Position numbers and translations under genes: made by a program. DNA of 64,000 bases from Faecalibacterium prausnitzii (GTDB lineage Bacteria; Bacillota; Clostridia; Oscillospirales; Ruminococcaceae): positions 1 through 64,000 of the forward strand of contig NZ_PXUP01000009.1 of assembly GCF_003324185.1 (NCBI RefSeq). The letters are read 5' to 3'. The stretch's first letter is position 1; the number at the start of each line of letters is the position of its first letter. A model generated the notes under the pieces. That model was not told where the DNA came from and made no database searches. It saw nothing but the letters and a program-made list of their open reading frames with translations. Below are positions 62,287 through 63,873 of this stretch, piece by piece.

Positions 62287-62315
62287 TTGATAAAATCCGA
62301 CCACTGTTGTAGAAT
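62287..62315 (+). promoter_or_regulatory. Promoter of the leader-peptide genes
   Basis: TTGATA, 17 bases, TAGAAT; leader about 95 bases. Confidence 0.65.
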
Positions 62316-62412: not shown

Positions 62413-62766
62413 ATGAAAAAGATGAATTATCCCGCAGATTATGCGGTACTTTCCAACGAAGAAATGACCTATACCACCGGCGGCGGCGCAGTGGATGATG
62501 CTGCCAGTCTCGCCACTACTGCCGCAACGGTCGTAGGTGCTGTGGTGCTGGCCTCCAGCTACATCTGGGGCATCAAGCAGGCACGCACATGGTTGCAGCA
62601 GGACGGCAACAAGGACGGCAACTTCTTTACCGTGATGGGCCGCGCCACCGATGCCCTTGCCGCCGATATGGGCAAATCCGCCGGCAACTTTGTGCGGGAT
62701 GCCGTTTCCACCACCATGGTGGTGGCGCTGGCTCCCCTGAGCGCCGTTCTGCTGATCGTGCGCTGA
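62413..62766 (+). CDS. Double-glycine leader peptide 1, bacteriocin-like precursor
   Basis: 117 residues. Residues 1-24 form a leader ending ...LSNEEMTYTTGG: L at -12, S at -11, E at -8, M at -7 and Gly-Gly at -2/-1 match double-glycine export leaders. The core of 93 residues is Ala/Gly-rich with a helix-prone hydrophobic stretch (TVVGAVVLASSYIWG) and the segment DALAADMGKSAGNFVRD, which its neighbour shares. GAAGGAG-type ribosome site (AAAGGAG, 8 bases). No immunity or export gene is in the window. Confidence 0.7.
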   Translation: MKKMNYPADYAVLSNEEMTYTTGGGAVDDAASLATTAATVVGAVVLASSYIWGIKQARTWLQQDGNKDGNFFTVMGRATDALAADMGKSAGNFVRDAVSTTMVVALAPLSAVLLIVR

Positions 62767-62781
62767 CCTTTTTAATCAGAT

Positions 62782-62811
62782 AAAACGGTGCTTTTTTGGA
62801 TGCACCGTTTT
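62782..62811 (+). terminator. Hairpin between the two peptide genes
   Basis: AAAACGGTGC pairs with GCACCGTTTT around TTTTTTGGAT. May be a partial terminator that adjusts the second gene. Confidence 0.55.
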
Positions 62812-62841
62812 GGATAGCTTTGTTTCAAAAGGAGTGTTATT

Positions 62842-63171
62842 ATGGAAAAAATGATGATGCCCGCGTACTACAATGTACTGTCCACTGAGGAAATGACCTA
62901 CACCGAAGGCGGCGCCAATGCTACCATGTCTGAGGCTCTGCTGTGCTGGCTGATTCCCCCGTACGGCTGGTTCAAGGGTCTGACCGCTGTCCGCAATTAC
63001 CGCCGTAAGAACCCCAACACTTGGACTGAGACCGGTCTGGATGCTCTGACTGCCGATATGGAGAAGAGCACTGCCAACGCCATCCGTGACATCGCCTGCA
63101 CCGCTTACATGATCAGCTCCACCGCTACCGGTGTCGGCCTGATCATCAATGCAGCAGTCATCCTGCTCTGA
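62842..63171 (+). CDS. Double-glycine leader peptide 2, bacteriocin-like precursor
   Basis: 109 residues. The leader MEKMMMPAYYNVLSTEEMTYTEGG is in the same register as peptide 1 and again ends Gly23-Gly24. The 85-residue core has hydrophobic ends, a basic RNYRRKNPN middle and DALTADMEKSTANAIRD, aligned with peptide 1 (residues 80-96 and 67-83). AAGGAG is 8 bases before the ATG. Two-peptide bacteriocin or other processed peptide pair. Confidence 0.7.
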   Translation: MEKMMMPAYYNVLSTEEMTYTEGGANATMSEALLCWLIPPYGWFKGLTAVRNYRRKNPNTWTETGLDALTADMEKSTANAIRDIACTAYMISSTATGVGLIINAAVILL

Positions 63172-63221
63172 TCCATCTTATCTCATAAGACCGGCTCGGA
63201 GTACACCAAAGAACAAAGCAG

Positions 63222-63261
63222 GCGGAGGCGCTGCCCGAAAGGGCAGCGCCTCCGCTGTTTT
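63222..63261. terminator. Terminator between peptide and toxin genes
   Basis: GCGGAGGCGCTGCCC-GAAA-GGGCAGCGCCTCCGC, then TGTTTTTA. Perfect 15-bp stem with a GAAA loop; serves both converging genes. Confidence 0.85.
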
Positions 63262-63266
63262 TATGC

Positions 63267-63623
63267 TCATTCTTCCGGCAAAGAATCCTCTTCCAAAGGT
63301 TCTTCCCTTGTTTTATCAAACAACACGCTCAGATAGTCCCTGCGGCCATAGAGTACACGGTCGACCGTGACCACCGATTTTCCGGTATGGTAAAAAATCA
63401 AATAGTTCTCGCATACAAGGAACCGTTCTTCTCCTATTACTTCCGATATGGATGAAAGCAGCATTCCGCTCTCCGCAAAATCTTCCAGCTGATCTACTCT
63501 GTCCATGATTTTATTGACAAGTCTTTCCGCCGCCTGCTGATTTTGCAGATCAAGTGCAATATAATCCCAGATCGAATCCAAATCACAGCGTGCCTCGTCT
63601 GTGTATAAGATCTTATTTTTCAT
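63267..63623 (-). CDS. Type II toxin, RelE/ParE superfamily
   Basis: 118 residues. KILYTDEARCDLDSIWDYIALDLQNQQAAERLVNKIMDRVDQLEDF and EERFLVCENYLIFYHTGKSVVTVDRVLYGRRDYLSVLF match the ParE/RelE plasmid-stabilisation fold. Probable gyrase poison or ribosome-associated endoribonuclease; not separable here. I start at ATG 63623, which overlaps the antitoxin stop by 11 bases. The GTG at 63635 is an alternative. Confidence 0.85.
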   Translation of the reverse strand: MKNKILYTDEARCDLDSIWDYIALDLQNQQAAERLVNKIMDRVDQLEDFAESGMLLSSISEVIGEERFLVCENYLIFYHTGKSVVTVDRVLYGRRDYLSVLFDKTREEPLEEDSLPEE

Positions 63624-63873
63624 TTGCTCTTGCACGGAAATGCGCCCTCATTTCTTCACTGGTCAGACAGCCTTTCTCTTCCCCGGAGCGGCGACCTTTT
63701 GCGATCTCACTCATCAGACGGATCGTTGCCTGTGCTTTCTCATAATCACGCAGTTCCACAATGGCATATTTTCCGCGGCCGTTCTTGGTCAGAAAGACCG
63801 GCGAGCCTTCCTCCACATCCCGCAATACCTCGTTATAATTTCGCAAATCAGAGATCGGTTTAATATTCGGCAT
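63613..63873 (-). CDS. Antitoxin, Phd/YefM family
   Basis: 86 residues. PNIKPISDLRNYNEVLRDVEEGSPVFLTKNGRGKYAIVELRDYEK is the Phd/YefM DNA-binding half; the C-terminal tail (EKGCLTSEEMRAHFRARANEK) should bind the toxin. Expected to repress its own promoter. Start at ATG 63873 with AAAGGAG upstream; TTGAAT-17-TATACT promoter at 63896-63924. Confidence 0.9.
   Translation of the reverse strand: MPNIKPISDLRNYNEVLRDVEEGSPVFLTKNGRGKYAIVELRDYEKAQATIRLMSEIAKGRRSGEEKGCLTSEEMRAHFRARANEK

Follow-up and report, generated by a model that had tools for sequence, protein, structure and literature searches.

Two adjacent genes in the window (the whole 64,000-nucleotide stretch of Faecalibacterium prausnitzii DNA that was analysed), here called pepA and pepB, each start with a double-glycine leader, and the locus raises the question of what these leaders head and which exporter would take up the products. 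Judged by sequence, the leaders are of the type found in Faecalibacterium MAM (Microbial Anti-inflammatory Molecule), which PMC12184118 reports to be more abundant than any other envelope protein in F. duncaniae, and the cores are not MAM-like. The best explanation is that the two genes encode precursors belonging to a family of small, helical, hydrophobic proteins restricted to Faecalibacterium. A literature search covering titles and abstract starts of open-access papers returned no paper describing these genes.

The gene pair and its transcription

The elements of the locus are as follows.

62287–62315, + strand: promoter-like TTGATA-N17-TAGAAT, 5' of the pair (consensus scan, 10 of 12 positions)
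62413–62766, + strand: pepA, type-A precursor of 117 amino acids (ORF with AAGGAG ribosome site)
62413–62484, + strand: pepA leader, residues 1–24, ending in Gly23-Gly24 (sequence; C39 consensus)
62782–62811, + strand: putative hairpin AAAACGGTGC ... GCACCGTTTT in the pepA–pepB gap (read from the sequence; folded)
62842–63171, + strand: pepB, type-B precursor of 109 amino acids (ORF with AAGGAG ribosome site)
62842–62913, + strand: pepB leader, residues 1–24, ending in Gly23-Gly24, with MMMPA as in MAM (sequence; MAM leader comparison)
63221–63256, + strand: intrinsic terminator, a 16-pair stem followed by GTTTTT (terminator scan)

The leaders of pepA and pepB, LSNEEMTYTTGG and LSTEEMTYTEGG, both end at Gly23-Gly24 and precede cores of 93 and 85 residues, respectively, which have the block DALxADMxKSxxNxxRD in common. 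With the leader included, the two proteins find each other at E-values of 3e-8 and 1e-8, and the leaderless profiles of types A and B also match each other. The first-pass annotation had described two adjacent genes of these lengths, each with a double-glycine leader and with a core block in common; they are confirmed at these positions, and are conserved and under selection. At the DNA level, the leader pattern GARATGACNTAYNNNNNNGGNGG was matched 85 times (forward and reverse summed) in 31 genomes, and its reversed control not once in the same 31.

The promoter scan returned 3 sites, against 1.2 expected in shuffles, and the terminator scan 3 terminator-like sites, also against 1.2. In 12 of 13 loci (window included; an uncontrolled count), gene A has a loosely similar promoter site 111–134 bp ahead of it. 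With the promoter-like site at one end and the strong terminator at the other, the pair looks like a separate transcription unit, in which a promoter of its own probably drives pepA and pepB. Between the first two genes of the array, the gap (62767–62841 in the window) measures 73–111 nt across loci and, despite its varying sequence, is predicted to fold in all 13 loci, with uncontrolled energies of −18 to −35 kcal/mol; its hairpin possibly serves attenuation or mRNA processing. Directly downstream, on the − strand, lies a ParE/Phd-type toxin-antitoxin pair (63267–63873), found near the array in only two of 16 other neighbourhoods, with Phd 93% and ParE only 41–46% identical.

Compared with three close relatives, dN/dS is 0.15–0.29 for pepA and 0.12–0.19 for pepB, which indicates that both are translated and under purifying selection. 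The flanking MBOAT, DHHW and spoVAD genes give 0.03–0.11 with the same relatives. The pair evolves faster than its neighbours, DHHW coming near it in one comparison (0.107 versus 0.125). The leader has a dN of zero in five of six comparisons, and it is the core that drifts.

Leader type and candidate exporter

The C39 leader consensus quoted in PMC12184118 consists of Leu at −12, Glu at −8, Leu or Met at −7, Val at −4 and Gly at −2 and −1. In line with it, both leaders have a hydrophobic residue at −12, Glu at −8, Leu or Met at −7 and Gly-Gly at −2/−1, with Thr in place of the quoted Val at −4. The pepB leader, MMMPAYYNVLSTEEMTYTEGG, resembles the MAM amino-terminus printed in the same paper and that of MAM from the window's own genome, MMMPANFSAVSENEMTYVMGG, where a true MAM gene is located at C35:20312–20740, on another contig than the pair. 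MAM-like proteins were found in that work by a strict leader motif, MMMPANx(8,11)VxGG, from which both leaders depart: pepA reads MNYPAD...TTGG and pepB MMMPAY...TEGG. The double-glycine call of the first-pass annotation was correct, while the MAM type of the leader and the genus-wide array had escaped it.

The resemblance ends with the leader. Leaderless profiles of types A, B and C, compared by hhalign with a seven-row MAM profile, give probabilities of 0.31, 0.24 and 0.15%, and core homology to MAM was rejected at these values. Since the core is unrelated, the function of MAM is not transferable to the pair. Sporulation genes have been reported near mam in PMC8836110; the spoVA proteins of the window have no tblastn match in 19 kb around the MAM gene of the same genome (L010), so the array locus and that mam locus are not equated here. 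MAM transcription is described as high and steady (PMC10781979).

PCAT, a C39 peptidase ABC exporter, is described as the cognate exporter of MAM, and cutting of the MAM leader by it has been argued in silico (PMC12184118); such cutting was also raised in PMC8836110, which notes strains whose PCAT and mam genes are not neighbours. In the window's own genome a single locus was found (C44:125306 onward, E-value 4.9e-26), with an intact frame of 782 residues containing the ABC domains, and with Gln8 and Cys14 placed as in the F. duncaniae PCAT (positions as given in PMC12184118). HlyD and Big_2 genes are nearby. The first-pass annotation had guessed at an exporter elsewhere, and the intact PCAT is indeed on another contig than the pair; it is not beside the array, and the two are at different places in every genome that has both. 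From the sequences, export of the pair by this PCAT is very likely. The same leader type on an unrelated body, in two adjacent genes, indicates that MAM is probably not the sole cargo of its exporter.

Two more stand-alone genes with MAM-type leaders and other cores are present in this genome, encoding 77 amino acids (G000:C5:62167, L005) and 156 amino acids (G000:C35:192997, L007). The latter has clear relatives in three genomes (L134, L165, L166), and longer genes of similar appearance exist in more.

The array across the genus

A search for the shared core together with mapping of neighbourhoods, as the first-pass annotation had proposed, revealed a genus-wide array in constant surroundings. 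The search set comprised 31 congeneric genomes, the window's own included, and 26 of these contain, at the core level, an array of homologous types A, B and C, usually two or three genes long. Type A occurs in 23 genomes, G027, G028 and G030 have type B only, and the contents vary between A+B, A+C, A+B+C and B only. A tree of 58 different proteins, from the loci collected by then, has 23 rows of type A, 20 of type B from 16 genomes and 15 of type C from 14 genomes; L109_8582 forms a long branch of unsure placement, and long-branch effects may account for several of the deep joins. Leaderless profiles match with probabilities of 95.5% (A–B), 97.5% (A–C) and 85.0% (B–C). These mutual matches, with none to MAM, indicate one core family, MAM being another, under one leader type. 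The homologues neither lack the leader nor belong to larger proteins, the two outcomes that would have spoken against precursor genes: 22 of 23 type-A matches begin at query residues 1–4, and the remaining one (G005) has a leader too. With their leaders and open frames of 112–238 amino acids, the type-A homologues are stand-alone small leader genes. G005 has a single array gene because its contig ends there.

The order spoVAE-D-C, VanY, lipoprotein, MBOAT, DHHW, array is the same in all 16 neighbourhoods fetched from the 26 array genomes, which were compared with the window genes only. In 25 of the 26 (the 16 neighbourhoods, eight more contigs and the own genome), spoVAD shares the contig with the array at a distance of no more than about 8 kb; it was not found in G010. 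A convergent dnaJ follows 3' of the array in 12 of 16 neighbourhoods, starting 89–329 nt after it in nine of the 16, while G003, G008 and G014 have a thioredoxin-like gene (read from the sequence) instead. Coupling of the array to MBOAT and DHHW was not adopted, because a separate promoter seems to serve the array and MBOAT-DHHW persists where the array is missing.

Outside the genus the core is scarce. In 394 genomes of the order, some of them Faecalibacterium, it was strong only in four Faecalibacterium genomes, and three weak matches elsewhere, in frames of 592–654 amino acids, were taken as chance. A search with the leader included, in 297 genomes of the family, found four that do not belong to the genus, with the match falling mostly within the leader; one of these (G086) carries an internal stop. 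The GTDB scan yielded 20 Faecalibacterium loci, one in Butyrivibrio and one in Roseburia.

A phage or plasmid origin was rejected, with pepB or the type-B profile as the only query: there were no relatives among 57 pattern matches in the IMG/VR scan, nor in the plasmid set. The sole phage record, MT839569.1 (L216; 4.2 kb), contains part of MBOAT, DHHW, pepA, pepB, ParE and Phd at 86–99% identity, a gene content that identifies it as a piece of Faecalibacterium chromosome deposited under the name 'UNVERIFIED: Bacteriophage sp.'.

A full C39 signal is present in 26 of the 31 genomes, and MAM in the same 26; a 27th match, in G020, is weak and in a 293-residue frame. The distribution of the array differs from that of PCAT and MAM only at G024 (79% complete), with PCAT and MAM and no array found, and at G025 (77% complete), with an array and neither PCAT nor MAM found. 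Four genomes (G018, G019, G020 and G026) are without PCAT, MAM and array, and all four keep MBOAT-DHHW; no leader gene is present in the 2.4–7.2 kb downstream of it, the contigs of G018 and G026 ending there. The co-occurrence has a Fisher p of 0.0008, which overstates independence: the four lacking genomes are one clade (support 100/99 in an MBOAT tree of 22 rows), so the pattern amounts to about one event. In G028, which has array and MAM, the C39 frame (G028:C1:1947568) is only 203 amino acids long, against 776–846 in the other 25 genomes, and represents either a broken PCAT or an assembly error.

Hydrophobicity, predicted fold and family matches

The mature proteins have GRAVY values of 0.51 (pepA) and 0.23 (pepB), compared with 0.04 for MAM of the same genome. 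Hydrophobic 19-residue stretches are located close to both ends of the pepA core and, in pepB, where the core ends. The predicted model of the pepB core is all-helical (pLDDT 72.7, pTM 0.61), while that of pepA (pLDDT 59.3) is too poor for use. Among fold neighbours of the pepB model, the PDB gave one match at an E-value of 6.2 and the viral library 24 matches, none at 0.001 or better. Sequence searches of the PDB gave no matches for type B and seven for type A, the best at 0.19.

The cores of 85–93 residues had been annotated as matching no known family, and no curated family in Pfam or NCBIfam was matched above cut-off; this includes all bacteriocin models for pepA and pepB. Pfam QslA matches type A weakly in 11 of 18 cases (best 0.0018; pepA scores 15.7 bits, below the cut-off of 25). 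Single homologues weakly match Pfam Mersacidin (0.001), Antimicrobial17 (0.0067) and Bacteriocin_IIc (0.013), and NCBIfam lactococcin G-alpha (0.0049); we infer that these matches come from the leader.

Proposed role and alternative readings

In the mechanism we propose, the MAM-type leader of pepA and pepB would be recognised by the genome's only PCAT, the C39 domain would cut after Gly24, and a mature protein of 85–93 residues would be exported. By analogy with MAM, and more weakly inferred, the mature proteins may remain associated with the envelope, where they would insert into the membrane or cover it, and may have a structural or contact role next to that of MAM. Taken as a whole, the reading of MAM-exporter cargo that is cleaved behind Gly24 and ends up in the envelope is the one towards which we lean, by a modest degree of confidence.

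A multi-component bacteriocin, in which mature A, B and C would insert into and kill related strains with immunity encoded elsewhere, would account for the double-glycine leader, the tandem homologous genes, the hydrophobic helices, the variable gene content, the evolution faster than the neighbours and the weak model matches of single homologues. Such a system leads one to look for an immunity gene and an exporter close by. The search for a two-peptide bacteriocin immunity gene, which covers linked, conserved ORFs, found no small ORF after the array (between it and dnaJ, or in the 4 kb that follow) common to more than three of the 16 loci; six of the nine short dnaJ gaps hold no ATG-initiated ORF of 30 amino acids, and no C39 exporter is beside the array. 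The same chromosomal place throughout the genus, the absence of plasmid or IMG/VR relatives of pepB, cores of 85 residues and more, and three core types also argue against it. We consider it rather unlikely, albeit with an appreciable share of the probability, and the two-component bacteriocin suggested in the first-pass annotation gained no specific support.

Pheromones exported by C39 exporters are far shorter than the pepA and pepB cores, which makes it improbable that these are signalling peptides sensed by the same population. That C39 exporters serve pheromones as well (PMC8836110) speaks for such a role. Modified-peptide (RiPP) precursors with their enzymes elsewhere are the least credible reading, very improbable in our estimate: the NCBIfam lantibiotic model TIGR03893 matches pepA at an E-value of 0.0018, yet with 18.6 bits it is below its cut-off of 32.95 and, at residues 13–50, partly on the leader; the pepA core contains no cysteine and that of pepB two; and the own genome has no LanC-like cyclase domain (PF05147, 0 of 1), LanC-like being the RiPP enzyme family covered.

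Returning to cargo of the MAM exporter, a wider proposal is offered tentatively, as a minority possibility: small helical proteins delivered by PCAT (MAM, the A/B/C array and other leader-sharing genes) might form much of the surface, assembling species-specifically, with PCAT a general surface-protein exporter and not a peptide-specific one. MAM is a leading candidate to explain the beneficial effect of Faecalibacterium; because several unrelated cores throughout the genus carry this one leader type, disruption of PCAT or envelope proteomics would report on more than MAM. Test objects are the five leader genes and one exporter of the own genome; other genomes offer up to six pattern matches.

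Comparison with known systems

Class II double-glycine-leader bacteriocins (Pfam PF10439 and relatives) are like the pair in their leader, in candidate C39 export and in a small, hydrophobic, probably helical product. The pair differs in matching no model above cut-off, in its longer core, in having neither a common small gene nor a C39 exporter adjoining, and in its core-genome position.

Genes in Butyrivibrio (L168), Roseburia (L169) and three genomes of the family (L173, L175 and L176) have nearly the same leader, MPxxYxxxxEEEMTYxxGG. They are in tandem in L169, L175 and L176, and their cores look unlike those of the array, the matches being mainly in the leader; by sequence, the MAM-type leader seems to be reused beyond Faecalibacterium.

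The array differs from MAM in its unrelated core, its departure from the published motif, its organisation as a tandem family of three types and its greater hydrophobicity. Array and MAM are alike in their genus, in the leader type MPA....EMTY..GG, roughly in size, in their candidate exporter and nearly so in their distribution, each being present in 26 of the 31 genomes with differences at G024 and G025.
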